A stretch of DNA of 38,388 nucleotides, from NCBI RefSeq assembly GCF_005771525.1, contig NZ_VAVZ01000036.1:239-38626 (forward strand), read 5' to 3'. Both the position numbers and the translations under genes were made by a program. Numbering within the stretch: the first letter of the stretch is position 1; each line of letters opens with the position of its first letter. This DNA comes from Nesterenkonia salmonea. GTDB lineage: Bacteria > Actinomycetota > Actinomycetes > Actinomycetales > Micrococcaceae. Below the pieces are notes generated by a model. It did no database searches. It was not told where the DNA came from and saw only the letters and a list, made by a program, of their open reading frames with translations. Below, piece after piece: positions 5,532 to 33,727 of the stretch.

Positions 5532-7707
<2,176 letters not shown>

Positions 7708-9034: not shown

Positions 9035-9082
9035 TGATGCTCCTTGATATGAAGTCGAATCGGCTTAGCTCGCCACATAGTC

Positions 9083-9114: not shown

Positions 9115-9258
9115 GTCGTGCGGGGGTCTGTCGCCACACTGGCGTACCCCACCGGCGGAAATCAGGCCGTCTTTGAGAATTCAGGTTCCTGTGGCGCCCT
9201 GATACCTCAACACCTCCCTGATTTATGGGCAACGCACCCCGGCCGAGCGGCAGCCACG

Positions 9259-9264
9259 TAAACT
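9259..9264 (+). promoter_or_regulatory. -10 element for a leaderless ankyrin-gene transcript
   Basis: TAAACT ends 6 bases before the ATG at 9271, the geometry of actinobacterial leaderless promoters. No Shine-Dalgarno is seen. The -35 region is not convincing. Confidence 0.45.
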
Positions 9265-9270
9265 TGGACC

Positions 9271-9699: not shown

Positions 9700-9730
9700 A
9701 CGGCGCAATATCGGTGAATAGGCTGAAACG

Positions 9731-9943: not shown

Positions 9944-9975
9944 AGACCAATCGGCCGGCCGCCAAGGATGCGGCC

Positions 9976-10530
9976 TCACTCCGACCGTGTGTGGAACCGT
10001 GCACCTGTCTCATTGAAAATACTGATCACTTCGGCGCGTTCCGGGCCAAGTGCGGTGAGCGCATGGGGCGTGAGCGTATCGAACTCCGCCGCCTCTCCTT
10101 TGTACAGAATCGTTTCCTGCTCCCCCAGCTGGAGCCGCATTCTGCCGCTGAGCACGTAGAGCCACTCATAGCCGTCGTGGATCTTCAGGTCATCGCGCGC
10201 AACGGCTGGCATGGGGCTATAGCGAATTTTGTACGTGTGCACTGGAGAGGACTCCACCGACAACGGATGAACTGTGATGCCGCCCGTTTCCCACGGCTCC
10301 CGCCGAACACGCGGATCATCGGGGGTGGCAACCACCAGGTCATCCAGACCGATACCCAACTGACGAGTCAAGGGCAGCAGTAGCTCTAAACTGGCCTGCC
10401 GCTTGCCGCTTTCCAGCCGGGAGAGAGTACTGGCAGAGACATTGGCTGCTCCAGCCAACCGTTCAAGAGTCCACCCACGCGCCGTCCGTGCCGCTTTCAA
10501 CCGCAGTCCCACCAGAGTTAGCTCATCCAT
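9976..10530 (-). CDS. XRE-family transcriptional regulator with C-terminal cupin
   Basis: The N-terminal helix-turn-helix (about 6-60: LRLKAARTARGWTLERLAGAANVSASTLSRLESG) is of the Cro/C1 type, and the C-terminal half (about 100-180) is a cupin beta-barrel (HDGYEWLYVLSGRMRLQLGEQE ... FDTLTPHALTALG) expected to bind a small ligand or metal. This is the common XRE-cupin repressor architecture (184 aa). It is divergent from the flavoprotein at 10607, with a 76-bp shared intergenic region holding an inverted repeat, so it probably controls that gene and itself; the direct control is inferred from position only. Confidence 0.92.
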   Translation of the reverse strand: MDELTLVGLRLKAARTARGWTLERLAGAANVSASTLSRLESGKRQASLELLLPLTRQLGIGLDDLVVATPDDPRVRREPWETGGITVHPLSVESSPVHTYKIRYSPMPAVARDDLKIHDGYEWLYVLSGRMRLQLGEQETILYKGEAAEFDTLTPHALTALGPERAEVISIFNETGARFHTRSE

Positions 10531-10565
10531 GGCACCAGTCTGAGCGGTTCTTGCAGATTTGGCAA

Positions 10566-10581
10566 ACTATATTTCGATAGT
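10566..10581. promoter_or_regulatory. Inverted repeat between the XRE regulator and the flavoprotein gene
   Basis: ACTATATTTCGATAGT has 5-base arms (ACTAT/ATAGT) around a 6-base centre. It lies midway between two divergent starts and could be the operator for the XRE-cupin protein. Confidence 0.45.
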
Positions 10582-10606
10582 GGCATGTTGGGTCCATGCT
10601 TGAATT

Positions 10607-11635
10607 ATGAACACCACAGAACACGTAGCTGCCGTAACACTGCTCGACCTGCCCATTGCCGCCGAAGCCGAACTGTGGGACAGCATCATTATTGGCGGAG
10701 GTCCAGCCGGACTCAGCGCCGCGCTTTCCTTGGGTCGCTCTTTGCGGCGAACAGTCATCATTGACGCTGGCCAACCACGTAACCGCTTCGCGTCCCATAT
10801 GCATACTGTGCTCGGCATGGAAGGCATCCCGCCGCAGGATCTGCTAGACCGCGGCCGCAGAGAGCTCGCTGAATATGGAGCGATTCTGCATCAGGGTTCA
10901 GTACGCGATGTTCGAGAATCCACCAACACCTCAGGGCCCCGCAGCCTCATTGTGAGCCTCGACGGTGGCCCCCAGCTGCGGGCCAGAACGGTGATCGCAG
11001 CCTCTGGACTCTCTGACCATCTGCCGGATATACCCGGTTTAGCCAAACACTGGGGTAAGACCGTGCTGCACTGCCCCTACTGCCACGGCTGGGAGGTGAG
11101 AGGTCAACGTCTGGGAGTGCTGGCCGCGGGACCCATGGCCTTGCACCAGGCCGAACTGCTGCGCCAGTGGAGTGACCGACTGACGTTCTTCAGCGCAGCC
11201 GCTGAACCACTCGACGACGCCGTGGCACGCCGACTTCGAGCTCGAGGAGTGACTATTGAGCCCTCCCCAGTCGTGGAAGCACTCGGCACCAGTGAGGGAA
11301 TTTCAGGACTGCTCCTGGAGAACGGTCAGCGGATCGGACTCGATGCGCTCTTCACTGCGGGGAGGATACAGCCGCATGACAGTTTCCTGAGCACGCTGGA
11401 TCTGAAGCGGACGGAGAACCCCATGGGCTCATTCCTCACAACGGACTTCACCGGACGAACCAGCCATGAACGGATCTGGGCTCCGGGCAATATCTCTAAC
11501 CCTGCTGCCAATGTGCCTCTGTCGATCAGCGCTGGAACGTTCGCAGGCGCCACAGCGAATATGGCTCTGGTGAGCGAGGACTTCGATCTGGCAGTAGCGG
11601 CTCAGCCCCTGGATTCGGCCAGTGCGGTGAAGTAG
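10607..11635 (+). CDS. Thioredoxin-reductase-like NAD(P)/FAD oxidoreductase
   Basis: Flavin disulfide reductase of 342 aa. The FAD-binding GGGPAG is at 30-35, preceded by a 24-residue extension. The redox pair C156-P-Y-C159 sits in HCPYCHGWE, the position of the CxxC in thioredoxin reductases and GliT-like enzymes, and an NAD(P)-binding region follows (about 165-270). IWAPGNISNPAANVPLSISAGTFAG is the C-terminal FAD contact. The CPYCHGWE variant marks a subfamily usually annotated only as an oxidoreductase; the disulfide substrate is unknown. It is divergent from an XRE-cupin regulator. Its 3' end overlaps the converging argR by 34 bp. No clear Shine-Dalgarno is seen at ATG 10607. Confidence 0.88.
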   Translation: MNTTEHVAAVTLLDLPIAAEAELWDSIIIGGGPAGLSAALSLGRSLRRTVIIDAGQPRNRFASHMHTVLGMEGIPPQDLLDRGRRELAEYGAILHQGSVRDVRESTNTSGPRSLIVSLDGGPQLRARTVIAASGLSDHLPDIPGLAKHWGKTVLHCPYCHGWEVRGQRLGVLAAGPMALHQAELLRQWSDRLTFFSAAAEPLDDAVARRLRARGVTIEPSPVVEALGTSEGISGLLLENGQRIGLDALFTAGRIQPHDSFLSTLDLKRTENPMGSFLTTDFTGRTSHERIWAPGNISNPAANVPLSISAGTFAGATANMALVSEDFDLAVAAQPLDSASAVK

Positions 11636-12099
11636 TCAGCGATATCCTGACCACCTTCGGGGTCTTTGGCAATCACCATGATGGTGTCATCGCCGGCGAT
11701 GGTGCCCAGAATCGACTTCGACGCCGAATGATCCACCGCGCTGGCCAGGAACTGCGCGGCCCCTGGCGGGGTACGCAACACCACGAGGTTTGCACTGGCT
11801 TCTGCGGAGACCAATAGGTCCCTGCACAGCGAGGCCAGCTTAGCGGTAGTGGTCTCCGCAATATCCGCCTGGAACTCGCGATCGTGGCCCTCCGCAGGCA
11901 CAGCGTAGATCAGTCCACCATCCCCGGTGCGCACCCGGGCTGCGCCGATCTCCACCAAGTCACGGGACAGTGTGCCCTGGGTGACCTTCACGCCCTCGGC
12001 AGCGAGGTCCCGGGCAAGTTCAGCCTGCGACTTGATCGACGACCGAGAGATGAGCTCCCGGATCTTGGCGTGACGAGCCGTCTTTGTGGTCGGGGTCAT
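11602..12099 (-). CDS. argR: Arginine repressor ArgR
   Basis: Arginine-responsive repressor of arg genes. The N-terminal winged helix has SQAELARDLAAEGVKVTQGT (24-43) with the recognition segment TQGTLSRDL (40-48), and the C-terminal oligomerisation/arginine-binding domain has GTIAGDDTIMVIA (about 134-146). Length 165 aa is standard. I chose ATG 12099, whose ATGA overlaps the argF stop by 4 bp; the 23-residue upstream extension lies in argF and is not conserved-looking. It is the last gene of argC-J-B-D-F-R and so is probably autoregulated through the argC operator. Its 3' end overlaps the convergent flavoprotein gene by 34 bp. Confidence 0.96.
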   Translation of the reverse strand: MTPTTKTARHAKIRELISRSSIKSQAELARDLAAEGVKVTQGTLSRDLVEIGAARVRTGDGGLIYAVPAEGHDREFQADIAETTTAKLASLCRDLLVSAEASANLVVLRTPPGAAQFLASAVDHSASKSILGTIAGDDTIMVIAKDPEGGQDIADYFTALAESRG

Positions 12100-13070
12100 G
12101 CGCTCTGCGCCTGGCGCACCATGCGGACAGTCTCCTCGTCGGCCAGACCGGACTCCACGAGCAGCCAAGCAATAAGCGCCTTCTGGACGTGAAGCCGGTT
12201 TTCAGCCTCGTCCCACACCACCGACTGAGGGCCATCGATCACCTCGGAGGTGATCTCGACCCCCCGGTAGGCCGGCAGACAGTGAAGCACCACGGCGTCG
12301 TCGTTGGCTTTGGCCATGGCCTCCGCGTTGAGCTGATACCTGCCAAAGATCTCCCCGCGCTGGGCCTCCTCCTGCTCCTGCCCCATGGAGACCCACGTGT
12401 CCGTGGCGACCACATGAGCATTCTCCAACGCTTCACGAGTATCCGAGGTCACCGTGACCTTACCGCCGGTCACGGTGGCGCGCTCCTGGGCGGTCTTGAT
12501 GATCTCCACAGCGGGTAGATGGCCTTCCGGTCCGGCGATCCGAACGTCCATTCCGGCATTGACGCCCGCTAGCAAATAGGAATTGGCCATGTTGTTCGCC
12601 GCATCACCCATATAGGCCAATGCCTTGCCCTGGAGCCCGCCGAGGTGGTCACGCACGGTCAGCAGGTCAGCGAGCAGCTGGCAGGGGTGGTAGTCGTCTG
12701 AGAGCGAGTTGATGACTGGGACACGGGAATGCTGGGCCATCTCCTCCAGGTCAGCTTGGGCGTATGTGCGCCACACAATGAGGCTCACCTGCCGATCCAG
12801 CACCCGTGCAGTATCCGAGATGGACTCCTTATGCCCCAATTGCGCCTCACCCGGATTGATCACCAGCGGATTGCCGCCAAGAGCCGCGATCCCTGCGCTG
12901 AAGGAAACGCGCGTCCGAGTGGAGGTCTTGTCGAAGATCACCGCTGCGGTCTGAGGCCCACCAAGGGCCTTGACGGCGTAAGGGTGGTCGCGCATCCACT
13001 GCGCCAGGTTAAGTACTTGGTCCAGTTCCTCAGGGCTGAGGTCCAGGTCATTGAGAAAGTGTCTAGTCAT
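12096..13070 (-). CDS. argF: Ornithine carbamoyltransferase
   Basis: Makes citrulline from ornithine and carbamoyl phosphate. The carbamoyl-phosphate loop STRTR is at 50-54, HPCQ at 128-131, the ornithine-binding region around D224 and SMGQE (228-232), and the catalytic HCLPAYRG at 263-270. Length 324 aa, intact. The start overlaps the argD stop by 4 bp and its own stop overlaps argR by 4 bp, so it is translated as part of the tightly coupled arg operon. Confidence 0.97.
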   Translation of the reverse strand: MTRHFLNDLDLSPEELDQVLNLAQWMRDHPYAVKALGGPQTAAVIFDKTSTRTRVSFSAGIAALGGNPLVINPGEAQLGHKESISDTARVLDRQVSLIVWRTYAQADLEEMAQHSRVPVINSLSDDYHPCQLLADLLTVRDHLGGLQGKALAYMGDAANNMANSYLLAGVNAGMDVRIAGPEGHLPAVEIIKTAQERATVTGGKVTVTSDTREALENAHVVATDTWVSMGQEQEEAQRGEIFGRYQLNAEAMAKANDDAVVLHCLPAYRGVEITSEVIDGPQSVVWDEAENRLHVQKALIAWLLVESGLADEETVRMVRQAQSA

Positions 13071-22570: not shown

Positions 22571-23950
22571 ATGTCGTGTGAAGACCTGGTTTCCGCACTC
22601 CCGGAAGGCCGCGTGATCACGGAACCGGCCACTATGGAGAATTACCGTTGGGACCGCGCCAACGATCCCGATGCCGGTACACCACTGGCCGTCGTGCGAG
22701 CAGAGTCCACTTCAGACATCCAGACAGTTGTGCGCTACGCCGCGGAACGCGGCATTGCAGTGGTTCCCCGCGGCGCCGGGTCAGGGCTGTCCGGAGGCTC
22801 CACCGCAGTCGAAGGCGGGATCGTGCTGTCCATGGAGCGAATGCGAGAGATCACCGTCGATCCCCTCACACGCACTGCAGTGGTGCAGCCAGGTGCTTTC
22901 AACTCGGAGGTGAAAGCTGCCGCCGCCGAACACGGCCTCTGGTATCCGCCGGACCCCTCCTCCTACGAATTCTGCTCCATCGGTGGGAACATCGCGACCA
23001 ATGCCGGTGGCCTGTGCTGTGTGAAGTATGGAGTGACCACCGACTATGTCCTCGGCCTCGGCGTAGTGCTGGCTGACGGACGGTCGGTGCAGCTGGGCGG
23101 CCCGCGCCTGAAGGATGTGGCCGGGCTCGACCTCACCAAACTGTTCATCGGCTCCGAGGGCACTCTGGGGGTGATCACAGAGATCACCCTGCGGCTGATC
23201 CCCGCACAGCGACCCCCGACGACGCTGGTGGCCACCTTCAAGACCCTCGACGCCTCGACCGACGCGATACTGGCAATCTCCTCCTCAATGCGGCCTTCCA
23301 TGCTGGAGTTTATGGATCGCCCCACGATCAACGCAGTCGAGGACGCCACCCGAATGGGGTTGGACCGCGAAGCTGCCGCCATGCTGGTCGTCCAATCCGA
23401 CGAACCGGCTGAATTCGCGGCCCAAGAAATCGCCAAGATAGAGGCCCTCTGTCATGAGCACCAGGCCGACGAGGTCTTCTCGACCACTGATCCTGACGAG
23501 GGCGAAGCGTTTGTGGTCGCGCGCCGGATGGCGATTCCTGCCGTGGAGCAGAAGGGGTCCCTTCTGCTGGAGGATGTGGGCGTTCCGCTCCCGAAGCTGG
23601 GCGACCTAGTGCGCGGAATTGAGCGAATCGCCCAACAGCGCGATATCGTCATCGCCGTGATTGCCCACGCCGGAGACGGCAATACCCACCCACTCCTGGT
23701 CTTCGACCCGACCGATCACGAGCAGAAGGAACGGGCACATCTCGCCTATGGTGAGGTGATGGACCTCGCTGTGCAGCTGGGTGGCACCATCACTGGAGAG
23801 CACGGCGTCGGTCGCCTCAAACGGCCGTGGCTGGCAGGCTATATAGGAGCGGACGCGCTGGATCTCAACCATCGCATCAAAATGGCACTAGACCCGCTGA
23901 ACGTTCTGAACCCCGGCGCGGTCCTGGACCCCGCTGCATTGAAGTCCTGA
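22571..23950 (+). CDS. FAD-linked 2-hydroxyacid oxidase/dehydrogenase, GlcD/D-lactate dehydrogenase type
   Basis: Soluble flavoenzyme of 459 aa in the FAD_binding_4 / FAD-oxidase_C family that oxidises D-lactate, glycolate or related hydroxyacids. The PP-loop for FAD phosphate is PRGAGSGLSGG (67-77), with IGGNIATNAGG (137-147) and GSEGTLGVITE (194-204) as further FAD contacts. HAGDGNTHP (366-374) supplies the metal/substrate histidines and GEHGVG (409-414) the C-terminal FAD contact. GAGGAG lies eight bases before ATG 22571. It has no iron-sulfur domain and no GlcE/GlcF neighbours; instead etfBA and a cytochrome b follow, so its electrons probably go to Etf. Lactate is the favoured substrate because a lactate permease follows, but glycolate is not excluded. 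Confidence 0.92.
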   Translation: MSCEDLVSALPEGRVITEPATMENYRWDRANDPDAGTPLAVVRAESTSDIQTVVRYAAERGIAVVPRGAGSGLSGGSTAVEGGIVLSMERMREITVDPLTRTAVVQPGAFNSEVKAAAAEHGLWYPPDPSSYEFCSIGGNIATNAGGLCCVKYGVTTDYVLGLGVVLADGRSVQLGGPRLKDVAGLDLTKLFIGSEGTLGVITEITLRLIPAQRPPTTLVATFKTLDASTDAILAISSSMRPSMLEFMDRPTINAVEDATRMGLDREAAAMLVVQSDEPAEFAAQEIAKIEALCHEHQADEVFSTTDPDEGEAFVVARRMAIPAVEQKGSLLLEDVGVPLPKLGDLVRGIERIAQQRDIVIAVIAHAGDGNTHPLLVFDPTDHEQKERAHLAYGEVMDLAVQLGGTITGEHGVGRLKRPWLAGYIGADALDLNHRIKMALDPLNVLNPGAVLDPAALKS

Positions 23951-23960
23951 AGGAGAAAGA

Positions 23961-24392
23961 ATGTCTCATTACACGAATATCCCGGCTGTCACCTACACCA
24001 CAGCCGCAGAGGCGATCAGGCACACCATCGATATCGGTGCTGAGCAGGGTGTGAAGCTCTGCGCCACCGTCGTGGACCCCGCCCTGGGGTTGGTGGCATA
24101 CGGCAGGGCCGATGGCATGACCCCGCACAGCGTCGAGACTTCTCGACGCAAAGCCCAAACAGCCGCCTCCACCCGGAAGCCTTCCGCCGCGGTCCCGGCC
24201 GAATTGGCCACCGCGATGGAAAACGGCACCGGGGGGCTCCTGACCCGAATCCCCGGCGGCGTGCCGCTGGTATTCGACGGTGTCCTGGTGGGCGGACTGG
24301 GTGTGGCCGGCGGACCCCCCGCAGAAGACGCCAAGGTCGCCGATGCGGTACTCGAGGCGCTGGGCGCGGCACCGGTAGGAGATGTGGGATGA
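23961..24392 (+). CDS. GlcG/HbpS-family protein
   Basis: 143-aa protein of the GlcG/HbpS (DUF336) family. The characteristic helical N terminus (TAAEAIRHTIDIGAEQGVKLCATVVDPALGLVAYGRADGM), the RRKAQTAAST segment and the glycine-rich end GGVPLVFDGVLVGGLGVAGGPPAEDAKVADAVL are all present. Some members bind haem and sense redox state; GlcG is encoded with glycolate oxidase subunits but its role is unsettled. No signal peptide, so cytoplasmic here, unlike secreted HbpS. AAGGAG precedes the ATG. It lies 10 bases after the oxidase and overlaps etfB by 4 bp, so it is part of the operon; a maturation or haem-handling role is only a guess. Confidence 0.88.
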   Translation: MSHYTNIPAVTYTTAAEAIRHTIDIGAEQGVKLCATVVDPALGLVAYGRADGMTPHSVETSRRKAQTAASTRKPSAAVPAELATAMENGTGGLLTRIPGGVPLVFDGVLVGGLGVAGGPPAEDAKVADAVLEALGAAPVGDVG

Positions 24393-25162
24393 GAATTGCT
24401 GTACTCGTCAAAGAGGTTCCAGACAGCTACGGTGCGCGTCGGCTGAACCTGACCACAGGACTGGCGGAGCGCGAAGCCAGTGACAGAGTGCTCGATGAAA
24501 TCACCAGCCGCGCAGTCGAGGCCGCAGTCTCCCATGCCGAGTCGGCCGAGGGCGTTGAAGTCGTCCTGGTGACGATGGGTCCGGAGTCAGCGGAGTCCAT
24601 GCTGCGAAAGACTCTGGCGATGGGTGCCGACTCCGCCCACCACGTTTTGGACCCGGGGCTTCTCGGCGCGGACATGACACTCAGCGCAGAGGTGTTGGCC
24701 GCGGTTCTGCAGCGCATTGGCTGTGACCTGGTCATCTCAGGGGACGTCTCCTCCGACGGTACAGGTGGAGTGATACCAACCATGATTGCAGAGCGGATAG
24801 GGGCAGCCCATGCCACGAGCCTGGACTCACTCACCATCACTGACTCTTCGGTGACCGGAAACCGTGAGACCTACGGTGGAACTGTCACCGTGGAGGCCCA
24901 GCTGCCCGCAGTGGTCTCTGTCACCGAGCGTCTGCCTGACGCCAGGTTCCCTGGATTCAAAGGAATCATGGCTGCTAAGAAGAAGCCGTTGGAGACCTAC
25001 ACCTTGGCCGATTTGGGGATTGATCCGGCCGCAGATGTGCCACGTTCCATCTTGCTGTCGGTGACCGAGGCGCCGGCCCGGACAGCCGGTGAAAAGATCC
25101 ATGACGAGGGCGATGCTGGCAAGAGATTGGCTGAGTACCTCATCGACAAGAAGCTGGTGTGA
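24389..25162 (+). CDS. etfB: Electron transfer flavoprotein beta subunit
   Basis: 257 aa. The N terminus MRIAVLVKEVPDS and the nucleotide-binding SSDGTGGVIPTMIAERIG (121-138) are typical. FPGFKGIMAAKKKP (187-200) is the recognition loop with which Etf docks on its partner dehydrogenases. With EtfA it holds FAD plus AMP (or a second FAD in bifurcating types; I cannot decide this from sequence). The ATGA start overlaps the GlcG gene, and EtfA starts 3 bases later. The location beside a hydroxyacid oxidase rather than acyl-CoA dehydrogenases suggests a dedicated Etf. Confidence 0.93.
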   Translation: MRIAVLVKEVPDSYGARRLNLTTGLAEREASDRVLDEITSRAVEAAVSHAESAEGVEVVLVTMGPESAESMLRKTLAMGADSAHHVLDPGLLGADMTLSAEVLAAVLQRIGCDLVISGDVSSDGTGGVIPTMIAERIGAAHATSLDSLTITDSSVTGNRETYGGTVTVEAQLPAVVSVTERLPDARFPGFKGIMAAKKKPLETYTLADLGIDPAADVPRSILLSVTEAPARTAGEKIHDEGDAGKRLAEYLIDKKLV

Positions 25163-25165
25163 AAT

Positions 25166-26143
25166 ATGGCTCAACAGAAGATTCTGACCTACCTTCCGGT
25201 TCTTCCCTCCGGAGAACTGATGGGATCGGCAGCTGAGCTGCTCGGGGCGGCAGCCCAGCTCGGCTCTCCCGTGGGCGTCATCGTCACCACTCCCGGAATG
25301 GCCGAAGCCGCGGCAGAATCCGCAGGGGAACTTGGCGCTGCCACCGTTCGCGTAGCAGAGCACGAGGCGGTGGGCACCACGCTGACGGAACCCACGGTGG
25401 ATGTTTTCACCACCGCATGGGAAGACCTCCGACCCGAGGCGGTGCTAGTGCCCAATGACATCGACGGACGTGATCTAGCTGCCCGGCTCTCCGTGCGCAC
25501 ACACAGCGCCATCGCCGCGGATGTGGTGGGAGTGCATCGGGATGAGGAAGGCATCGTCGCTCACCATTCGGTCTACGGCTCCACTTTCACGACGGAATCG
25601 GCCACGACTCACGGAACACTCATCATCACGCTCAGAGAGGGCGCCGTAGACTACCGGGGCCAGCCGGTGACTCCAGAGATTCACCGGGTTGAGCTCGGAG
25701 AGCTGCCCCCTCAGGCTGCGTCGATCACGGAATTCTCCGCTTCCGTGGAGGCTTCGACCCGCCCTGATCTCCGCGGGGCACCAACGGTCGTCGCCGGGGG
25801 ACGGGGATTGGGTTCGGCGGAGGGCTTCGCCCTGGCCGAACAATTGGCCGACGCGCTCGGAGCAGGTCTCGGTGCCTCCCGCGCAGCCGTAGACGCTGGC
25901 TACGCACCACACTCACTTCAAGTGGGACAGACCGGAGTGACGGTCGCGCCAGATCTTTATATTGCGCTGGGAATCTCCGGGGCCGTACAGCACTTGGCCG
26001 GCATGCAGACGGCAAAAACCGTAGTGGCCATCAATAAAGACCCTGAGGCGCCGATCTTCGACATCGCCGACCTGGGAATCGTCGGTGATGTTTTCGAGGT
26101 GGTGCCGCAGCTGATTGAGACGCTCAAGGCCCAGCGTCCATGA
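25166..26143 (+). CDS. etfA: Electron transfer flavoprotein alpha subunit
   Basis: 325 aa. The C-terminal FAD domain (about 205-310) is clear: VVAGGRGLGSAEGF, GASRAAVDAGYAPHSLQVGQTG, YIALGISGAVQHLAGM and AINKDPEAPIFDIADLGIVGD. The N-terminal third is the Etf alpha/beta fold. Carries one electron at a time from a flavin dehydrogenase to a membrane quinone reductase. Its stop overlaps the start of the cytochrome b gene (ATGA), the strongest sign in the window that the cytochrome is the partner that accepts Etf electrons. Confidence 0.94.
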   Translation: MAQQKILTYLPVLPSGELMGSAAELLGAAAQLGSPVGVIVTTPGMAEAAAESAGELGAATVRVAEHEAVGTTLTEPTVDVFTTAWEDLRPEAVLVPNDIDGRDLAARLSVRTHSAIAADVVGVHRDEEGIVAHHSVYGSTFTTESATTHGTLIITLREGAVDYRGQPVTPEIHRVELGELPPQAASITEFSASVEASTRPDLRGAPTVVAGGRGLGSAEGFALAEQLADALGAGLGASRAAVDAGYAPHSLQVGQTGVTVAPDLYIALGISGAVQHLAGMQTAKTVVAINKDPEAPIFDIADLGIVGDVFEVVPQLIETLKAQRP

Positions 26144-27504
26144 TCGGAGACTCCGGACACCGCAGGCGGGGCCTTCCGCGAACCGAGCAGGAGGCTCAGG
26201 CGCCGACACCCTTACCGCCTGAAGGTGACGTGCCGTCAGCCGACACCCCAGCTCCGCCACGACGCCGCAGCGGGCTCCCACGCACGGTCGACGCCCCGGT
26301 CAAACACACCGCCGAGCCAAGGGCCGCTAAGCCGGACGCCTCGGAACAAACTGCCTCGGAACGGACCGCCCCCACGCCGAGAGCAGTTGACCACACCGAG
26401 CAGGCAGCTGAGGCCGACGCCGCGGCGCATGCGCCCCCTGCCGAGCCAGCCGTGTCGCGGCGGCGTTCCGGTCTGGGAAGCAACCCCACGCCCGGTCCCG
26501 TCTCAAGTCCGAAGCCTCCTCCCGAAAGCACAGCCTCGGCGACACCGGAGCCGGCTGCACCGGATTCGGCGCGGGCCCGTCCCGCGACCTCGGCCGAGCG
26601 ACCGGTCGCAGTCTCACGCACTCGCAGTAAAACCGCCCTATGGTGGGCTGCTGTAGGTATCGGCGGGGTCGTCATCCTGGCGGCAGCCATGGTCATCGCC
26701 GCGCAGTGGTTCCTGGGCACCGAGGCCGGGCGCAACTTCCTCAGTCGCTACCCCGGCCAGTACGAGCAACCCGACGCGCCGGGCGGATATCCCTGGTGGC
26801 TGAACTGGGCCCACTTCTTCAATGCGTTTCTCATGGTCCTGGTCATCAAGACCGGAGTCCAAATCCGTCGCGAAATCAAACCGGAGGCCTACTGGACTCC
26901 AAAGTGGGGCAGGCAGCGGCGAATCAGCCTCACGATCTGGACTCACAACGCACTGGACCTGCTCTGGGTGCTCAACGGGCTGGTGTTCGTGACCCTGCTG
27001 GTCGCAACGGGCTACTGGTCCCGCGTGGTGCCCACCAGTTGGGAGGTCTTCCCGAATGCGCTGTCGGCGCTCGTGCAGTATGTCTCACTGGATTGGCCCA
27101 CGACCAGCGACTGGGCGCACTACAACAGTGCACAGGAGCTGGCGTACTTCGTCACGATCTTCGTTGCCGCGCCTCTGGCAATCGCCACCGGAGTGAGAAT
27201 GTCCGGGCTCTGGCCTGGGGATAAGCCGATGCTCAACAAAGCTTTTCCCGTGGAATGGGCACGTGCTGTGCATTTCCCAGTCATGATCTATTTTGTGACG
27301 TTCATTCTCGTGCATGTGATTCTCGTCTTCGCAACCGATGCATTGCGGAACCTCAATCAGATCTACACCGGCCAGGACGCCACCAATTGGACCGGGTTCT
27401 GGCTCTTTGTCCTTTCCCTGATTGTCATCATCGGCGCGGCAGTAGCTGTCCGACCCGTCCTCGTCGCGCCGCTGGCGAGCCTTTTCGGGCGAGTAGGTCG
27501 ATAA
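26140..27504 (+). CDS. Membrane cytochrome b (formate dehydrogenase gamma/b561-like) with long disordered N-terminal tail
   Basis: 454 aa in two parts. Residues 1-165 are low-complexity (Ala, Pro, Glu, Thr, Arg) with three copies of an arginine motif: RRRGLPR (8-14), RRRSGLPR (41-48) and RRRSGLGS (107-114). Residues 166-454 hold about five transmembrane helices (about 168-190, 223-240, 270-293, 333-350, 379-400, 418-437 are hydrophobic). Membrane-region histidines H225, H269, H327, H378 and H392 are candidate ligands for two b haems, as in FdhI-like cytochromes. No iron-sulfur or CCG domain, unlike EtfD-type Etf:menaquinone reductases. The start overlaps etfA. I infer it passes electrons from Etf to menaquinone. 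Confidence 0.82.
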   Translation: MIGDSGHRRRGLPRTEQEAQAPTPLPPEGDVPSADTPAPPRRRSGLPRTVDAPVKHTAEPRAAKPDASEQTASERTAPTPRAVDHTEQAAEADAAAHAPPAEPAVSRRRSGLGSNPTPGPVSSPKPPPESTASATPEPAAPDSARARPATSAERPVAVSRTRSKTALWWAAVGIGGVVILAAAMVIAAQWFLGTEAGRNFLSRYPGQYEQPDAPGGYPWWLNWAHFFNAFLMVLVIKTGVQIRREIKPEAYWTPKWGRQRRISLTIWTHNALDLLWVLNGLVFVTLLVATGYWSRVVPTSWEVFPNALSALVQYVSLDWPTTSDWAHYNSAQELAYFVTIFVAAPLAIATGVRMSGLWPGDKPMLNKAFPVEWARAVHFPVMIYFVTFILVHVILVFATDALRNLNQIYTGQDATNWTGFWLFVLSLIVIIGAAVAVRPVLVAPLASLFGRVGR

Positions 27505-27538
27505 AAGTCCACGATGCGAAAAGTCCCCACTAAATAAA

Positions 27539-27554
27539 TGTGGGATGTGTCACA
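27539..27554. promoter_or_regulatory. Crp/GlxR-like site upstream of the lactate permease
   Basis: TGTGGGATGTGTCACA differs from the Crp-family consensus TGTGA-N6-TCACA at one position. It lies 70 bases before the permease GTG, within the 119-bp gap after the cytochrome b gene, beside an A/T-rich stretch. A further inverted pair, GTCAC-N10-GTGAC, overlaps it (27549-27568). A second Crp-like site is at 22469. Confidence 0.5.
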
Positions 27555-27623
27555 CTCATGTCTGTGACGTGAACGTGCACTGAGGCGGGACAAAGGCTCG
27601 CCCGTCGAAAGGACGTTATCAGC

Positions 27624-29429
27624 GTGGATAACTTGGCTCTTCTTGGCATTCTGGCGATCGCACCAATCCTCCTGGCAGGGATACTCCTGGCGGGTTTTCG
27701 ATGGCCCGCGAAATACGCAATGCCGCTCAGCTACATCGTGGCGCTGGTGATTGCATGGCTCGTGTGGGAAATGCAGCCAACCGCCCTGGCAGCCGCTTCG
27801 ATCGAAGGCCTGATCGTAGCTGGGACGCTGCTGTACATCGTCTTCGGAGCGTTGCTCCTGCTTTCGACCGTCACACTCTCAGGGGCCATGGACCGCATCA
27901 AGGGAGGTTTCAACCACATCTCCCCGGACCGACGCATCCAAGCAATCATCATCGGCTGGCTCTTCGGAAGTTTCATCGAGGGCGCATCGGGCTTCGGCAC
28001 CCCAGCGGCCATCGTGGCCCCCCTCCTGCTCGCGATGGGCTTCCCAGCTATGGCTGCGGTGGCCGTCGGCCTGATCATCCAGTCCACCCCGGTGAGCTTC
28101 GGAGCAGTGGGCACCCCCATCCTCGTGGGTGTAGGAAATGGTCTGGGTGAAACCCTGCCCGGCGTGCCGGAACGCATCGACGCACTCGGCATGGACTACT
28201 CCGAGTACGTTGCCCACATCGGTTTTCAAACTGCTCTGATCCACATGGCTGTGGGCATCCTCATCCCACTGATACTCGTGTGTCTTCTCACCGGGCTCTT
28301 CGGTGAGAAGCGAAACTTTGCGCTGGGCCTCAAAGTATGGCCGTTCGCTGTCTACGCCTCGCTGGCTATGACAATCCCCTCGGTGGCTGTCGCATACCTC
28401 CTCGGCCCCGAATTCCCCTCACTGATCGGCGGACTCGTCGGCTTGACCGTGGTGATGCTCACCTCGTCGAAGGGCTTCCTGATGCCCAAGGAAACCTTCG
28501 ACTTCGGACCGCGGGCAACCTGGGAAGAGCGTTGGATGGGCCGGATCGCTCCAGGTGACGTCAAGGAGAGCGGCGAGGCTCAGACGATGACTATGGTGCG
28601 CGCCTGGTCTCCCTACGTCATCCTCGCAAGCCTGCTCGTGCTGACCCGGCTCATCGATCCCGTGACGGAATTCCTGACCACTCCCGGCGTGACGCGCCTA
28701 GCGTTCTCCGACATTTTGGGCGTGGAGGGCATCAACGCTGACGTGGATCTGTTCTACTCCCCCGGTTTCGTTCTGATCTTTGTCTCTCTGGTCTCCTACC
28801 TCATCTATCGGATGAGCGGCAAGCAAATCGCGACAACGTGGAAGGTGTCCGGAAAGCAGATCGCCGCAACTGCAGTAGCCCTGCTGTTCGCCGTGCCCAT
28901 GGTGAGAGTCCTCATCCAGTCCGGCATCAATGAATCGGGCTTGGAATCCATGCCGGTGGTCCTCGCCCAGGGCGTGGCAAACGTCGCCGGGGACACCTGG
29001 CCGTTCTTCGCCCCGTTCATCGGCGCCCTGGGGGCCTTCGTCGCCGGGTCCAACACGTTGGCCAACCTGACGTTCGCTCAGTTCCAATGGGCGACCGCGG
29101 AGACGATTGGTGTCAGCCCTGAGACGGTGGTTGCGGCACAGGCGGCGGGTGGCGCCGGTGGTAACCCCATCGCGATCCACAACATTGTGGCGGCCTCCGC
29201 GACAGTGGGACTCTTCAATCGTGAGGGGGACATCATGCGCAAAACGGTGTGGATTACCCTCTACTACTGCATTGCGGCCGGCTCCGTTGCTTTCCTCGCC
29301 ATCCATGGGTTCGGCCTGAACATTGGCACCGGAGGACTGCTGCTGCTGATCGCTGCCCTGGTGGGACTCGGGTACTGGGCAGTGCGCCGGGGCGATGCCC
29401 CCAGGATGCAGCTCCCCTCGCAGAACTGA
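27624..29429 (+). CDS. lldP: L-lactate permease (LctP family)
   Basis: Polytopic membrane protein of 601 aa, about 13-14 transmembrane segments, that imports lactate (and often glycolate) with protons. Family blocks visible: [19 protein letters not shown] (74-92), [21 protein letters not shown] (115-135) and [16 protein letters not shown], and near the C terminus [14 protein letters not shown] and [23 protein letters not shown]. The start is GTG 27624 with AAAGGA ten bases upstream. It follows the oxidase-Etf-cytochrome operon by 119 bp on the same strand and may have its own promoter. It defines the likely substrate range of the upstream enzyme as lactate or glycolate. Confidence 0.95.
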
Positions 29430-29463
29430 GAAGCCGAAGACGCTGATCCTCGGTGGGGACCCC

Positions 29464-29493
29464 TTGCATTCGAATATGTGTTCGATTCATACT
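29464..29493 (+). promoter_or_regulatory. umuD promoter with leaderless geometry
   Basis: -35 TTGCAT (29464-29469) and -10 CATACT (29488-29493) are 18 bases apart. The -10 ends 6 bases before the ATG at 29500, so the transcript should start at or beside the start codon. The SOS box fills the spacer. Confidence 0.65.
29470..29485. promoter_or_regulatory. LexA (SOS) box upstream of umuDC
   Basis: TCGAATATGTGTTCGA matches the Gram-positive/actinobacterial LexA consensus TCGAAC-N4-GTTCGA at all but one arm position. It lies between the -35 and -10 of the umuD promoter, where LexA would block transcription. Confidence 0.88.
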
Positions 29494-29499
29494 GAGCAC

Positions 29500-29931
29500 A
29501 TGAGCATCCAAGACATCCGCGCCGTACCGGTGACGGGGCCTGCCATGGAGGTGCCGATGATGCCCACGGCGGTGCAGGCAGGATTCCCCTCCCCTGCGCT
29601 GGACTTCGTGCACGAAAGCATCAATCTGCAGGAGCACCTGGTCTACGACCCTCCGGCGACGTTCATCGCCAGGGTCAGCGGGGACTCCATGGTCGGCGCC
29701 GGAATCAGTCACGGCGACCAACTCCTGATCCATAAGGGAACGCGCCCCCGGGACGGGGACGTGGTCATCGCGGTGCTCGATGGCCAATTCACCGTCAAGC
29801 GGCTCCGCCTGACCGGAACCGGGGTGCGGCTGGAGGCTGCGAACCCGGAATACCCGGACATTGAGGTTCCGGAGTTGTCTGAACTGTCTATTTGGGGTGT
29901 GGCATATATGTGCCTCCATGGTTTGCGATGA
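29500..29931 (+). CDS. umuD: UmuD-type S24 peptidase, translesion polymerase V accessory subunit
   Basis: 143 aa from ATG 29500. RecA-stimulated self-cleavage is expected between A27 and G28 in QAGFPSPALDF, which mirrors the CGFPSPA site of E. coli UmuD. The catalytic pair is Ser63 in GDSMVGAGISHGD and Lys100 in FTVKRLRL. The longer open frame from 29395 overlaps the permease and lacks relevance. UmuD' activates UmuC for error-prone synthesis. The stop overlaps the umuC start by 4 bp; a LexA box lies in the promoter. Confidence 0.95.
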   Translation: MSIQDIRAVPVTGPAMEVPMMPTAVQAGFPSPALDFVHESINLQEHLVYDPPATFIARVSGDSMVGAGISHGDQLLIHKGTRPRDGDVVIAVLDGQFTVKRLRLTGTGVRLEAANPEYPDIEVPELSELSIWGVAYMCLHGLR

Positions 29932-31205
29932 GCAAGCACCTGTTGGCGCTCGTCGATGTCAACAGCTTCTATGTCAGCTGCGAGCGCGCCTTTGACCCCA
30001 CCTTGGAAGGGCGGCCCGTACTCGTCCTTTCCAATAACGACGGTTGCGCTGTGGCTATGAGCGCAGAAGCCAAAGAGCTGGGAATCACCGTGGGCGCGCC
30101 CTGGTTCAAGCTGGCTCCCAACGCTCAGCGGCACGGACTTGTGGCAAGGTCAAGCAACTATGAGCTCTACGGCGATATGAGTCACCGGTTTCTCCAGGTC
30201 ATCGGGGAACATTCCCATGAGGTGGAGAAGTACAGTATTGATGAGGCCTTCGCCGGATATGGCGGGCCCCTCCAGGGAGCCGGCCCGTGGGCGGAGAGAA
30301 TTCGGCGCGACATCGCTGAGCGGCTCAGCCTTCCGGTGGGCATCGGAGTCGGAGCCACTAAAACTCTGGCGAAATTGGCCAATCTGGCTGCCAAGCGGGT
30401 TCCCGGTATGAGAGGCGTCTGTGTATGGGATGGCTTGGACGCAGAATACCGCGACTGGGTGATGAGCCGACTTCCGGTTCAGCAGATTTGGGGCGTGGGC
30501 CCACGCTCGGCGAAGAAGTTGGCAGCACATGGCGTGACCACGGCCGCAGCGCTGCGGGACGCCGACGCTCAGTTCGTCCGCCGCCTGCTGGGCGTCACCA
30601 TGATGCGCACCGTGCTGGAACTGCGCGGTCAGCCATGTATCCAACTGGAGGAGGAACGCGAATTCCGTGACTCGCTGGTCTTCAGCAGATCCTTCTCCAC
30701 CCCCGTGAGCACCCGGGAGATCATGGCTCAGGTGATGGCCAGCTACGCTCAGCGGGCCTGCACCCGGCTGAACTCCCGTAGTACGGAGGCCAAGACACTC
30801 ACCGCCTGGGCTATGACCTCCCAGTTCAACTCGGCGGCAGAAGACTCCCCCTCAGCAACGTTGTCACTGCCCGCCCCCACTAATGACCCAGTCCTGCTCA
30901 CGCGAGCTGCCCAAGCTTTGCTGCCCCGCATGACAGAGGGCACTCGTTACACTAAGGCAGGAATCACCCTGACGGACCTTTCGCCGCGGGGCGCCCAACC
31001 TGCATTCGACCTCTTCGCTGAACCTCAGCAGGACAAAGGCATCGGGCCGCTCCTGCAGCAGGTGAGGGAGAAGTCCGGCACCGACGCCATCGGCATGGGC
31101 CGTGGAGGTATGCGCACAGCTGCCGAGTGGGAGATGCGCCGAGAGATGATGAGTCCGCGCTACACCACACGTTGGCAAGAGATGCTCGAGGTGCATGCCC
31201 GGTGA
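29928..31205 (+). CDS. umuC: Y-family DNA polymerase UmuC
   Basis: Translesion polymerase of 425 aa. The catalytic acids are D10 in LALVDVNSFYVSCER and D105/E106 in YSIDEAF. The steric-gate region is NSFYVSCE, helix-hairpin-helix IWGVGPRSAKKLAAHG follows, and the little-finger domain has SFSTPV with the C-terminal UmuC extension. QPAFDLF (357-363) is a probable sliding-clamp motif. ATG 29928 gives the UmuC-like MSKHLLALVDVN and an ATGA overlap with umuD. SOS-controlled with umuD. Confidence 0.95.
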   Translation: MSKHLLALVDVNSFYVSCERAFDPTLEGRPVLVLSNNDGCAVAMSAEAKELGITVGAPWFKLAPNAQRHGLVARSSNYELYGDMSHRFLQVIGEHSHEVEKYSIDEAFAGYGGPLQGAGPWAERIRRDIAERLSLPVGIGVGATKTLAKLANLAAKRVPGMRGVCVWDGLDAEYRDWVMSRLPVQQIWGVGPRSAKKLAAHGVTTAAALRDADAQFVRRLLGVTMMRTVLELRGQPCIQLEEEREFRDSLVFSRSFSTPVSTREIMAQVMASYAQRACTRLNSRSTEAKTLTAWAMTSQFNSAAEDSPSATLSLPAPTNDPVLLTRAAQALLPRMTEGTRYTKAGITLTDLSPRGAQPAFDLFAEPQQDKGIGPLLQQVREKSGTDAIGMGRGGMRTAAEWEMRREMMSPRYTTRWQEMLEVHAR

Positions 31206-31327
31206 CCACCGAATCCCTGTCGTTGAGGTGCGGGCACTCATCAGAGCTTCAGCTGATCCTTCAAGTTTTCCCAGGCAACCTGCAAGAATGGGGCTCTGCT
31301 GCGGCATGGACAGAATCGGAGAAAATG

Positions 31328-33727
31328 ATGGCTGAACTACTCACCGGGACACACCGTTCAGGCTCGGCTTCCCACACCGCGCACGAGCGCATCAGCGTTC
31401 GTGGCGCCCGTGAGAACAACCTGCGCAGCGTGGATCTGGACATCCCCAAGCGGCAGCTCACAGTATTCACCGGAGTCTCGGGCTCTGGGAAGTCCTCGCT
31501 GGTCTTCGGCACCATCGCGGCCGAGTCTCGGCGGCTGATCAATGAAACATACGATGCGTTCATCCAGGGCTTCATGCCCTCCATGCCCAGGCCCGATGTA
31601 GATTCTCTCCACGGCCTCACTGCCGCCATCATTATCGATCAAGAGCGCATGTCGCCGAACCCGCGTTCCACCGTCGGAACAGTCACCGACGTCAATTCCA
31701 TGCTGCGCACCCTTTACAGCAGGTTCGCCCAGCCGCGGATTGACTCACCGCAGGCGTATTCCTTCAACATAGCCTCAGCATCCGGGGCCGGCACCCTCAC
31801 CAAAGCCGATGGCACAGAGCACGCGGCAGGCTTCAGTGTCACCGGCGGCATGTGTCTCCAGTGCCAAGGAAGAGGACAAGTCCATGACGTCGACATCTCT
31901 GAGCTGGTCGACGAATCCAAGTCCCTCAACGACGGCGCCATCACGATTCCCGGGTACAAAGCGGGCGGGTGGTCGGTCCGTTTCTACAGCGACTCCGGTT
32001 TCTTCGACCCAGACAAACCCATTAGCGACTACAGCGTTCAGGAGCGCCACGACCTTTTCTACCGTGAACCTGCCAAGGTGAAAATCGGTGGCGCCAACAT
32101 GACGTTCCAGGGGTTGGTGCCCTCTGTGAAGAAGACGTTCCTCTCCAAAGACCGTGACGGTATGCAGCCCCATATCAGGGCGTTCGTGGACCGCGCCGTC
32201 GCTTTCACTCAATGTCCAGACTGTCAGGGCACCCGACTCTCACAGCAGGCTCTGGCCTCCCGGATTGCAGGGAAGAACATTGCCGAACTATGCGCCATGC
32301 AGATCAGCGATCTCATCGATTGGATTGAGAACCTCGACGACGCCGCGGGACTCGGCAGTGCCACACCCCTCCTAAGAGCCGTCACCGACATCCTCCGAAA
32401 CTTTACGGCGATAGGACTCGGCTACCTCTCCCTGGAACGCTCCTCAGGGACCCTTTCCGGTGGTGAGGCGCAACGAGTCAAGATGATTCGACATCTCGGC
32501 TCATCGCTGACTGATGTCACGTACGTCTTTGACGAACCCACTGTGGGACTTCATCCTCACGATGTTGCTCGCATGAACGACCTCTTACTCAAGCTCAGAG
32601 ACAAGGGCAACACCGTCCTCGTTGTCGAACATGACCCAGATGTCATGGCGATCGCAGACCACGTCGTGGATATCGGCCCAGCCGCTGGAAGCCACGGCGG
32701 AGAGGTCGTCTACCGTGGCGACTTCGCCAGACTGCGCAGCTCGGGGACTTTAACAGGCGATCACCTCGAAACCCGGCAGCCCATCAAGGCTCAGCCGCGG
32801 ACAGCTTCCGGTACGATCTCCATCCGCGGGGCGACAACACACAATCTGCGAAACGTCGATGTGGACATACCTAGAGGCGTCCTCGTCGCAGTCTCTGGAG
32901 TTGCGGGATCTGGGAAGAGTTCGCTCATTCACGGGTCTCTGGCGGCGCGCGAAGGAGTGGTTGCGGTCGACCAGACCCCGATCAAGGGTTCCCGCAGATC
33001 GAATCCGGCAACCTACACGGGCCTGCTCGAACCGATACGTAAGGCGTTCGCCAAAGCAAATGGTGTCAAGCCCGCCCTTTTCAGTGCAAACTCTGAAGGT
33101 GCCTGTCCGAACTGCAATGGGGCCGGAGTGATCTACCAGGACCTCGGCATAGTGTCGGGGGTTTCCACGACATGCGAAGAGTGCCACGGCAAACGGTTCC
33201 AAGCAGCTGTCCTGGACTACACCCTTGGCACCTTGAACATTGCGGAAGTCCTAGGAATGCCGGTGGATCGGGCCTTGGAGTTCTTTTCCGGAACGGGCAC
33301 TGGCGGGCCAGAAGTATCACTGCCTGCGGCCAGCAAGATTCTGACCAGACTTCGTGATGTCGGACTGGGCTACCTCACGCTGGGACAACCGTTGAGCACC
33401 CTGTCGGGCGGTGAGCGGCAACGCCTCAAACTAGCGATTGAGATCGGAGCCGATTCCGAGGTGTTGATTCTGGATGAACCGACTGCCGGGCTGCATATGG
33501 CGGACACGCAACGTCTCATCTCTATGCTCGAGAGGCTCGTCGAGGCCGGACGAACCGTCATTGTCATCGAGCACAATCTTGATGTGATTGCTCAGTCCGA
33601 CTGGGTCATTGATATCGGTCCAGGCGCAGGTCACGACGGCGGTCAAGTGGTCTTCTCCGGCACTCCGGCCGATCTTCTCAGCGCCAGCCGGTCGCTCACC
33701 GGGCTGCACCTCAGCCGGCACCAGTAG
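31328..33727 (+). CDS. UvrA-like ATP-binding protein, short (UvrA2/DrrC) class
   Basis: 799 aa with two ABC ATPase modules of the UvrA type. Module 1: Walker A GVSGSGKSS (49-57), zinc-type C176xxC179 and C296xxC299, signature LSGGE (376-380), Walker B FDEPTVGLH. Module 2: Walker A GVAGSGKSS (524-532), C593xxC596 and C616xxC619, signature LSGGERQR (692-699), Walker B LDEPTAGLH. Canonical UvrA is about 950 aa; this is the short class that lacks the UvrB-binding insertion and includes the drug self-resistance protein DrrC. It may remove intercalators or bulky adducts from DNA. I chose ATG 31328 (GGAG six bases upstream); ATG 31325 is possible. It follows umuC by 122 bp but has no clear SOS box of its own. 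Confidence 0.9.
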   Translation: MAELLTGTHRSGSASHTAHERISVRGARENNLRSVDLDIPKRQLTVFTGVSGSGKSSLVFGTIAAESRRLINETYDAFIQGFMPSMPRPDVDSLHGLTAAIIIDQERMSPNPRSTVGTVTDVNSMLRTLYSRFAQPRIDSPQAYSFNIASASGAGTLTKADGTEHAAGFSVTGGMCLQCQGRGQVHDVDISELVDESKSLNDGAITIPGYKAGGWSVRFYSDSGFFDPDKPISDYSVQERHDLFYREPAKVKIGGANMTFQGLVPSVKKTFLSKDRDGMQPHIRAFVDRAVAFTQCPDCQGTRLSQQALASRIAGKNIAELCAMQISDLIDWIENLDDAAGLGSATPLLRAVTDILRNFTAIGLGYLSLERSSGTLSGGEAQRVKMIRHLGSSLTDVTYVFDEPTVGLHPHDVARMNDLLLKLRDKGNTVLVVEHDPDVMAIADHVVDIGPAAGSHGGEVVYRGDFARLRSSGTLTGDHLETRQPIKAQPRTASGTISIRGATTHNLRNVDVDIPRGVLVAVSGVAGSGKSSLIHGSLAAREGVVAVDQTPIKGSRRSNPATYTGLLEPIRKAFAKANGVKPALFSANSEGACPNCNGAGVIYQDLGIVSGVSTTCEECHGKRFQAAVLDYTLGTLNIAEVLGMPVDRALEFFSGTGTGGPEVSLPAASKILTRLRDVGLGYLTLGQPLSTLSGGERQRLKLAIEIGADSEVLILDEPTAGLHMADTQRLISMLERLVEAGRTVIVIEHNLDVIAQSDWVIDIGPGAGHDGGQVVFSGTPADLLSASRSLTGLHLSRHQ

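Follow-up and report, generated by a model that had tools for sequence, protein, structure and literature searches.

The window analysed here, a stretch of 38,388 nucleotides from Nesterenkonia salmonea, contains six genes which, according to the ORF calls, run head to tail on the forward strand in the order glcD-hbpS-etfB-etfA-cytb-lctP (Table 1). As far as cytb they are joined by gaps of at most 10 nt or overlaps of 4 nt, a layout that the first-pass annotation had described correctly. The same six-gene order is repeated beside pheS in five further loci (L031, L035, L036, L037, and L038), so the cluster is not due to chance. The permease scores above the NCBIfam cut-off of its family (TIGR00795, 361.6 bits against 341). 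The glcD product reaches 417 bits against TIGR00387 (glcD), under the cut-off of 568, and is for this reason called GlcD-type rather than GlcD proper. There is no CxxC in the GlcD-type, HbpS-like, EtfB, and EtfA proteins, and EtfA and the cytochrome have no Cys at all, so that none of these five proteins gives any sign of Fe-S sites. The earlier statement that all the Fe-S parts are missing holds for the cluster, where neither GlcE nor the Fe-S protein GlcF was found, but not for the genome, which has three FAD-oxidase_C ORFs (952-977 aa) bearing 4Fe-4S domains elsewhere. EtfD was not found in this genome, nor was Fer4_ETF_QO (PF05187, 0 matches), and a profile search for the CCG family also gave 0 matches; one 977-aa FAD/4Fe-4S ORF, scanned directly, had a CCG match of 21.9 bits, just above the cut-off.

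Table 1. Genes of the cluster and copies of the tail motif (positions within the window).
Feature	Coordinates	Strand	Details
GlcD-type FAD-dependent 2-hydroxyacid dehydrogenase	22571..23950	+	459 aa; FAD_binding_4 + FAD-oxidase_C (Pfam); substrate module
HbpS/GlcG-like protein	23961..24392	+	143 aa; PF03928 88 bits; 10-nt gap after glcD
EtfB, electron transfer flavoprotein beta subunit	24389..25162	+	257 aa; PF01012 108 bits; 4-nt overlap with hbpS
EtfA, alpha subunit, FAD-binding	25166..26143	+	325 aa; PF00766 117 bits; 3-nt gap after etfB
b561-type cytochrome b, proposed ETF:menaquinone oxidoreductase	26140..27504	+	454 aa; Ni_hydr_CYTB; 4-nt overlap with etfA
Tail motif copy 1, RRRGLPR	26161..26181	+	residues 8-14
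Tail motif copy 2, RRRSGLPR	26260..26283	+	residues 41-48
Tail motif copy 3, degenerate, RRRSGLG	26458..26478	+	residues 107-113
LctP-family lactate/glycolate permease	27624..29429	+	601 aa; PF02652 378 bits; 119-nt gap; substrate module

The conserved unit is the triad etfB-etfA-cytb, and GlcD is the variable part. Among the 80 nearest cytochrome loci, EtfA was found directly upstream of the cytochrome in 74 and EtfB upstream in 73; GlcD was present in 8, as was the HbpS-like gene, which accompanies glcD. The order glcD-hbpS-etfBA-cytb appears again in Nesterenkonia, Garicola, and Cryobacterium. L032 (Nesterenkonia) has lost or never had glcD, hbpS, and lctP at this site and carries only the triad there, in L033 genes of a CoA pathway lie beside it in place of glcD, and triads elsewhere have valine-degradation-type genes as neighbors. 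Scanning one representative per cluster (72 loci), we found neighbors of the acyl-CoA dehydrogenase type in 28 and of the enoyl-CoA hydratase type likewise in 28. The neighborhood search proposed in the first-pass annotation thus upheld the linkage of etfBA with cytb, but mostly not that with GlcD. The idea of a system defined by, and specific for, hydroxyacid oxidation was given up on the grounds of these counts, together with L032 and L033; the ETF-cytochrome b unit devoid of Fe-S parts, which had been proposed as well, is kept far beyond Nesterenkonia salmonea.

The nearest solved chains to the GlcD-type protein are 9qgz_A, which bears the name "Glycolate oxidase" (E 1.8e-117), and 7qh2_C (E 2.1e-66), the LctD of a lactate dehydrogenase-Etf complex. 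The enzyme probably oxidizes lactate-like acids, and the most likely reading is that it feeds the ETF of the triad as one dehydrogenase among several. Both ETF subunits carry the ETF domain (PF01012, 108.4 and 79.7 bits) and EtfA has PF00766 in addition (117 bits), all above the cut-offs. EtfA falls within the main clade of cytochrome-linked EtfA proteins (support 100/99).

The cytochrome consists of a region predicted to be disordered (residues 1 to ca. 150) followed, from ca. residue 162 on, by six hydrophobic helices. Its sole Pfam match is PF01292 (Ni_hydr_CYTB/prokaryotic cytochrome b561), with 33.0 bits against a cut-off of 30.1. Four histidines (His225, His269, His378, and His392) are invariant in 75/75 cytochromes and are the probable ligands of two b haems, a role that we take the four conserved His of PF01292-type cytochromes to have. 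CxxC occurs in none of the 75 homologs, though in 6 of them the last 300 residues include a Cys or two, and the CCG and 4Fe-4S cluster ligands of the EtfD/FadF/DgcB type are missing from the cytochrome of the window. The whole protein had no match among the PDB sequences at E up to 1, and Foldseek gave none under E 0.001, the absence of other families from these fold lists being uninformative. For two related proteins encoded on plasmids, the annotation goes no further than "cytochrome b/b6 domain-containing protein."

The most distinctive feature of this cytochrome, unmentioned in the first-pass annotation, is its cytosolic, disordered N-terminal tail with a repeated R-R-G-L-P-R-x-x-G-G-x-x-W-P motif. 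GLPR is found in 206 copies in 74 tails, vs. 0.9 in shuffles. Across 20 genomes the motif pattern had 59 matches and a reversed-pattern control 0; 11 of the matches lay outside cytochromes, of which five could not be placed and six were in an open frame, none of these running on into W-P. Against the PDB sequences the tail alone gave matches at E 2 or worse only. We read the repeat-bearing tail as a putative ETF-docking line. Two ETF-linked cytochromes are without it. The assumption that all homologous cytochromes are ETF-linked had to be rejected, as 20 of the 43 strong matches in the order lie more than 3.5 kb from any listed EtfA (listed down to E of about 3e-28). The 18 of these 20 that were examined had neither motif nor ETF in 5-kb stretches (18/18). 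Among the 20, G065 (= L147) has no motif and no ETF match, and G274 seems to be broken across contigs, since copies of the motif directly follow etfA on another contig.

Exclusivity with respect to EtfD was assessed on a sample of 198 genomes of the order, phylum-wide samples being too broad. A strong cytochrome match was found in 0 of the 59 EtfD genomes, and one genus splits 14/14. Neither of them is present in 52 of the 146 ETF-bearing genomes, and PF05187 appears in 12/198, as marginal matches. From the four His in 75/75, the lack of CxxC, the 0/59, and the 14/14 split we infer a haem-only ETF:menaquinone oxidoreductase, and the etfBA-cytb unit may stand in for the known Fe-S enzyme that passes ETF electrons into respiration.

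With a probability of roughly two in three, judged from sequence comparisons, the locus would be a 2-hydroxyacid respiratory branch built on such an oxidoreductase, to which ETF would dock through the tail. LctP would import lactate or glycolate, which the GlcD-type FAD enzyme, to go by its family, would oxidize in the cytosol, passing the electrons to EtfAB, for which the LctD-Etf complex and the D-lactate dehydrogenase of Fusobacterium offer biochemical precedent. The arginine-rich repeats would then catch reduced ETF and its electrons would go straight to the b haem on the cytosolic side, a putative step supported by the conserved linkage, the EtfA clade, and the distribution complementary to EtfD. 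The fold and the four invariant His suggest that the electrons would reach menaquinone by way of another b haem and a quinone site resembling that of FdnI/HyaC. The triad would be a general machine and glcD-hbpS-lctP one of several input modules, acyl-CoA dehydrogenases being among the others.

The GlcD-type enzyme might instead be separate from the ETF unit, reducing O2 or another acceptor and merely sharing an operon with an etfBA-cytb that serves acyl-CoA dehydrogenases. The few GlcD-linked loci, the triads of L032 and L033, and the name of its nearest solved chain agree with this, as does the O2-using lactate oxidase activity that PMC12630350 ascribes to the Fusobacterium D-lactate dehydrogenase itself. 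However, the tight spacing, the recurrence of the gene order in three genera, and known GlcD-family donors to ETF (7qh2 complex; PMC12630350) make it unlikely. We give even less credit to a cytochrome working for another donor or in transmembrane electron export, like the cytochrome b domains of molybdopterin enzymes, with a regulatory or structural link to ETF. Distant homologs, roughly 33-42% identical across half of the query, do occur in ORFs annotated as molybdopterin-dependent oxidoreductases, and there are cytochromes of around 42-55% identity that have no ETF neighbors, some in genomes without ETF_alpha; but no molybdopterin enzyme was among the scanned neighbor proteins, and most ETF-linked members have the private tail and belong to the EtfA clade.

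A bifurcating or confurcating ETF as in LctBCD, with lactate coupled to NAD plus ferredoxin and the cytochrome as a side arm, appears very improbable. The best solved matches of EtfB do include the bifurcating CarD and 4kpu_B, and at the position of A. fermentans Gly123, read off the EtfB alignment and, according to PMC12630350, invariant in bifurcating ETFs, Gly is found in the window and in 89/89 other cytochrome-linked EtfB. Yet the same Gly is present in 13/13 EtfB from genomes with EtfD (5/6 EtfB adjoining EtfD have A or S), so the marker does not discriminate here between canonical ETFs, with AMP in the beta subunit, and bifurcating ones, with FAD there. The LctBCD complex has a ferredoxin-type domain in its EtfA-like subunit, whereas EtfA here has ETF domains only (325 aa and no Cys, vs. 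418 aa in LctC), and among solved chains it matches best to 1efp and 1efv, which we take to be canonical ETFs.

Among known systems, E. coli GlcDEF shares the GlcD-type catalytic subunit, the GlcG/HbpS-like neighbor, and a Lct/GlcA-family permease, but has the GlcE and GlcF that the cluster lacks. FdnI and HyaC, di-haem cytochrome b subunits that reduce quinone, share fold and four conserved His with our cytochrome, but take electrons from Fe-S subunits, where the donor proposed here is a flavoprotein. In the literature drawn on here, ETF:quinone oxidoreductases are of two unrelated kinds, mammalian ETF-QO and EtfD/FadF/DgcB, both with Fe-S. ETF-QO, a FAD and 4Fe-4S protein, and FixCX have the function proposed here for the cytochrome, ETF to quinone, but are different proteins. 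Among the matches listed, open-licence PubMed Central titles and abstract openings yielded no described ETF-cytochrome b system. A GlcD-family lactate dehydrogenase is also encoded with ETF in Fusobacterium, where D-Ldh goes with a canonical ETF, and in A. woodii, as LctBCD (PMC12630350; 7qh2), but there the electrons end up in butyryl-CoA dehydrogenase or in NAD/ferredoxin instead of in a membrane cytochrome. Mycobacterial EtfD, homologous to FadF and DgcB, is according to PMC13083937 likewise a membrane protein tied to actinobacterial EtfBA that brings electrons to menaquinone via a b haem and has a long disordered tail with interspersed repeats; it differs in its cofactors, which are a single b haem, two 4Fe-4S clusters, and a further two that are CCG-bound, as against no Cys and probably two haems.

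We are inclined to see here, on the strength of sequence, a further and structurally unrelated class of ETF:menaquinone oxidoreductase, Fe-S-free and probably di-haem, that would accept electrons directly from the ETF flavin, dock through RRGLPRxxGGxxWP repeats, replace EtfD in several actinobacterial lineages, and serve interchangeable dehydrogenases, the GlcD type included. If true, beta-oxidation and the respiration of branched-chain amino acids and hydroxyacids would have to be reconstructed differently in Microbacterium, Arthrobacter-type, Agromyces, and Nesterenkonia genomes. It would also make testable the general question of whether weak ETF-oxidoreductase contacts are held by repeated motifs on disordered tails. 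For EtfD the tail-mediated contact is an AlphaFold3 prediction, and the tails of FadF and DgcB are short or absent (both PMC13083937). The EtfD tail is C-terminal, with KGLGIAxGAKRPG repeats (L141-L143), and that of the cytochrome N-terminal with another motif. A single docking motif common to both was not supported, the motif PSSM ranking EtfD tails (L141-L144) no higher than shuffles; their common ground is a loose [KR]-G-L core and the repeat architecture only.

Relatives of the cytochrome were sought in a contig collection with a 15-row cytochrome alignment (A1), which confirmed at least 586; we kept the best 80, a set biased to close relatives. Of these best 80 of at least 586, 74 loci have etfA immediately upstream in the same orientation and 73 have etfB, with a median of 4 nt between EtfA stop and cytochrome start (range -29 to 14, overlaps in 14/74). 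GlcD and HbpS were each present in only eight and LctP (>50% identity) in seven. Four of the six loci without EtfA start less than 900 bases from a contig end (L079, L103, L104, L122), and L128 and L131 have upstream sequence but no EtfA. The Etf-linked, cytochrome-b-terminated hydroxyacid oxidation system proposed in the first-pass annotation is plausible in its chemistry and holds for the etfBA-cytochrome linkage, but its scope was too narrow, with GlcD in 8/80 loci. The object of interest is the etfBA-cytochrome unit together with its tail, the cytosolic, predicted-disordered N-terminal part of the cytochrome.

For the 72 EtfB-bearing loci, neighbouring ORFs were grouped into clusters, and one member of each of ten clusters was scanned as its representative. 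By these representatives, acyl-CoA dehydrogenase and enoyl-CoA hydratase types each occur in 28/72 loci, the 3-hydroxyisobutyrate dehydrogenase type in 11, thiolase in six and, on the opposite strand, a MarR-type regulator in 14. In L041 and L043 a 3-hydroxyisobutyryl-CoA-hydrolase-type (ECH_2) gene lies 3' of the cytochrome. The gene run of L040 includes a DAO/GCV_T-domain gene, which we take to be dimethylglycine-oxidase-like, and suggests that this cytochrome family is served by a further ETF donor. Thus, several unrelated dehydrogenase types adjoin an ETF and this cytochrome.

Features located in the window and in the other sequences analysed
Sequence	Coordinates	Feature
Window	22571..29429	glcD-hbpS-etfB-etfA-cytb-lctP, + strand
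Window	26140..27504	Cytochrome, 454 aa
Window	29395-33727	Peptidase S24/UmuD-like, UmuC-like and two-part ABC (UvrA-like) genes immediately after lctP; adjacent ORFs overlap
L032 (G009:C12:19500-38500)	6412-12540	pheS / etfB-etfA-cytb / umuD-umuC at the window's site; natural variant lacking glcD, hbpS and lctP
L040	4685-9962	DAO + GCV_T gene, divergent etfBA and short-tailed cytochrome in one gene run
L041	9235-11070	ETF-linked cytochrome, repeat QRMAGYTPLRG
L043	8488-9924	ETF-linked cytochrome, repeat PSRMG
L048 (G000:C82)	6076-12467	Home genome's second ETF pair, near FMN-dependent dehydrogenase, glycerate kinase and FGGY kinase
L050	7002-9860	Fused FAD-oxidase/4Fe-4S ORF, home genome
L051	7497-10403	As L050
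L052	6957-9890	As L050
NZ_CP090424.1	11946-12737	Actinobacterial-kind cytochrome, 59% identity

The same unit is recognizable within the genus. The cytochrome membrane domain was matched in 18 of 58 genomes (own included), and in the nine genus genomes with a cytochrome of at least 73% identity etfB and etfA always precede it. GlcD adjoins in six of the nine (window, L031, L035-L038) and is missing in L032 and L033; the ninth, L034, is a 3.5-kb contig, too short to judge. L032 lacks glcD, hbpS and lctP but keeps the window's flanks, pheS upstream and umuD-umuC-uvrA downstream (93%, 95%, 92%, 86% identity), and loss of these three genes seems likelier than primitive absence. The region is rearranged there, since pheS and pheT are separated by 4.8 kb. 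Upstream in L033 are genes for an AMP-ligase, two CoA-transferase subunits, a thiolase, a thioesterase and a short-chain dehydrogenase.

In the window, ORF calls agree with the six gene positions annotated at first pass (spacings of 10, -4, 3, -4 and 119 nt). The names, too, are borne out by Pfam and NCBIfam, except that the FAD enzyme can be called GlcD-type only, because its 417 bits fall below the TIGR00387 (glcD) cut-off of 568. Its best solved relatives are 9qgz (chain titled 'Glycolate oxidase') and LctD of the lactate dehydrogenase-Etf complex (7qh2). No CxxC is found in GlcD, HbpS, EtfB or EtfA, and the cytochrome has no cysteine. Among named contigs the nearest, from Nesterenkonia natronophila, matches the cytochrome at 89% identity and the other five proteins at 91-95%. 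The home genome, a 3.28-Mb draft (98.5% complete), has two ETF pairs and five FAD-oxidase_C genes, counting the window's. The genome search gave no match to EtfD or to Fer4_ETF_QO, so both ETF:quinone oxidoreductases searched for are absent, nor any to the CCG domain. Fe-S flavoproteins do exist in it: in a direct scan three long FAD-oxidase_C ORFs all carried 4Fe-4S domains, one with CCG at 21.9 bits, barely over the cut-off of 20.6. These fused ORFs (L050-L052, 952-977 aa) presumably resemble D-2-hydroxyglutarate dehydrogenases and are a possible alternative hydroxyacid route.

The tails (74, of 95-498 residues) contain 206 occurrences of GLPR, compared with 0.88 on average and at most 4 in 200 composition-preserving shuffles, a descriptive count, as the motif was spotted by eye in these same tails; the checks are L150-L163 and a genome-wide scan. 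The consensus is [LV]-R-R-G-L-P-R-V-P-G-G-E-P-W-P-P-A, with three copies in 49 tails, two in 14, four in seven, one in three and none in L064. Copies are spaced by a median of 75 residues (n=133), the first mostly starting around residue 10 and the last a median of 128 residues ahead of the membrane domain. The window's tail has two RRGLPR-type copies and a degenerate one without the G-G/W-P half. All 162 six-frame matches to R[RQS]GLPRxxGG in the window and 80 loci fall inside the cytochrome ORF. When 20 genomes were scanned with the DNA pattern, 59 matches resulted, of which 48 lie between etfA and the cytochrome membrane domain (counting those of G274, just after etfA, where the cytochrome locus is seemingly split between contigs) and 11 elsewhere; the reversed pattern gave none, and the window's own genome had no match to the DNA pattern.

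In an evenly drawn sample of 198 genomes of the order, the cytochrome gave 43 matches at E <= 1e-60 in 41 genomes. A listed EtfA lies within 3.5 kb of 23 of them, all with open frames of 438-917 aa; 14/14 of the ETF-linked L150-L163 have two to four motif copies (12 new to the first set, L162 and L163 being contigs of L108 and L083). Of the other 20, 18 were fetched as 5-kb stretches (L201-L218), none of which matched ETF or contained GLPR in the cytochrome; the longest possible tail was 31-71 aa in 15, and the open frame 91, 198 and 387 codons in the others. Of the remaining two, G065 (L147) had neither motif nor ETF match, and G274 is the locus seemingly split between contigs. L201-L218 and L147 are short-tailed cytochromes of 42-55% identity lacking ETF neighbours; no EtfD was found in their genomes, and ETF_alpha is missing from five of 18 such genomes. 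The presence of the tail and its motif therefore follows ETF linkage, but not in every case: L040 and L055 are ETF-linked although just 44 and 37 residues precede their membrane domains, and the divergent L041 and L043 have long tails with other repeats, so that repeats persist while their sequence changes.

In an EtfA tree of 67 rows, 40 of them cytochrome-linked (window, L033, L041, L043, L055, L040, 20 of the 80 and L150-L163), 39 of these 40 are separated together, by a branch with 100/99 support, from the EtfA of EtfD genomes and the home genome's second ETF. The fortieth, L040, clusters with second ETFs of genus g12. The 39 represent a distinct ETF lineage.

Could the cytochrome have replaced EtfD? 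EtfD (E <= 1e-30) was found in 59/198 genomes, ETF_alpha in 146 and Fer4_ETF_QO, with marginal scores, in 12. No genome had both EtfD and a strong cytochrome match, weak ones (36-40% identity) occurring in four EtfD genomes (G231, G342, G356, G368); for the 23 genomes with an ETF-adjacent cytochrome a plain hypergeometric value, ignoring shared ancestry, is 1.6e-4. Each of 14 sampled g12 genomes has exactly one of EtfD (5), ETF-adjacent cytochrome (6) or orphan cytochrome (3), and in some f15 and f20 genomes EtfA and EtfD form one cluster, a parallel to the etfBA-cytochrome arrangement. Against replacement, the 146 ETF-bearing genomes comprise 58 with EtfD, 23 with ETF-adjacent cytochrome, 13 with non-adjacent cytochrome only and 52 with neither at the thresholds used and ETF-QO-type matches marginal at most.

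The most likely path in the window is from hydroxyacid through the GlcD-type FAD enzyme and EtfAB to b haems or a quinone site and menaquinone. The FAD enzyme would pass electrons from the hydroxyacid to EtfAB, these would reduce the cytosol-side b haem, and a second b haem or the quinone site would deliver them to menaquinone. Transfer from a GlcD-family enzyme to ETF has biochemical precedent (PMC12630350); for ETF-to-haem transfer without an Fe-S relay no precedent was found among the listed titles and abstract openings of open-licence PubMed Central papers. Through its tail the cytochrome may increase ETF concentration locally, as proposed for EtfD's disordered tail from an AlphaFold3 model (PMC13083937); EtfD and EtfB co-immunoprecipitate (PMC8593149). 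By PSSM, no motif is common to the two tails.

The NZ_CP090424.1 cytochrome lies on a plasmid labelled Stenotrophomonas maltophilia, a possibly mislabelled record.
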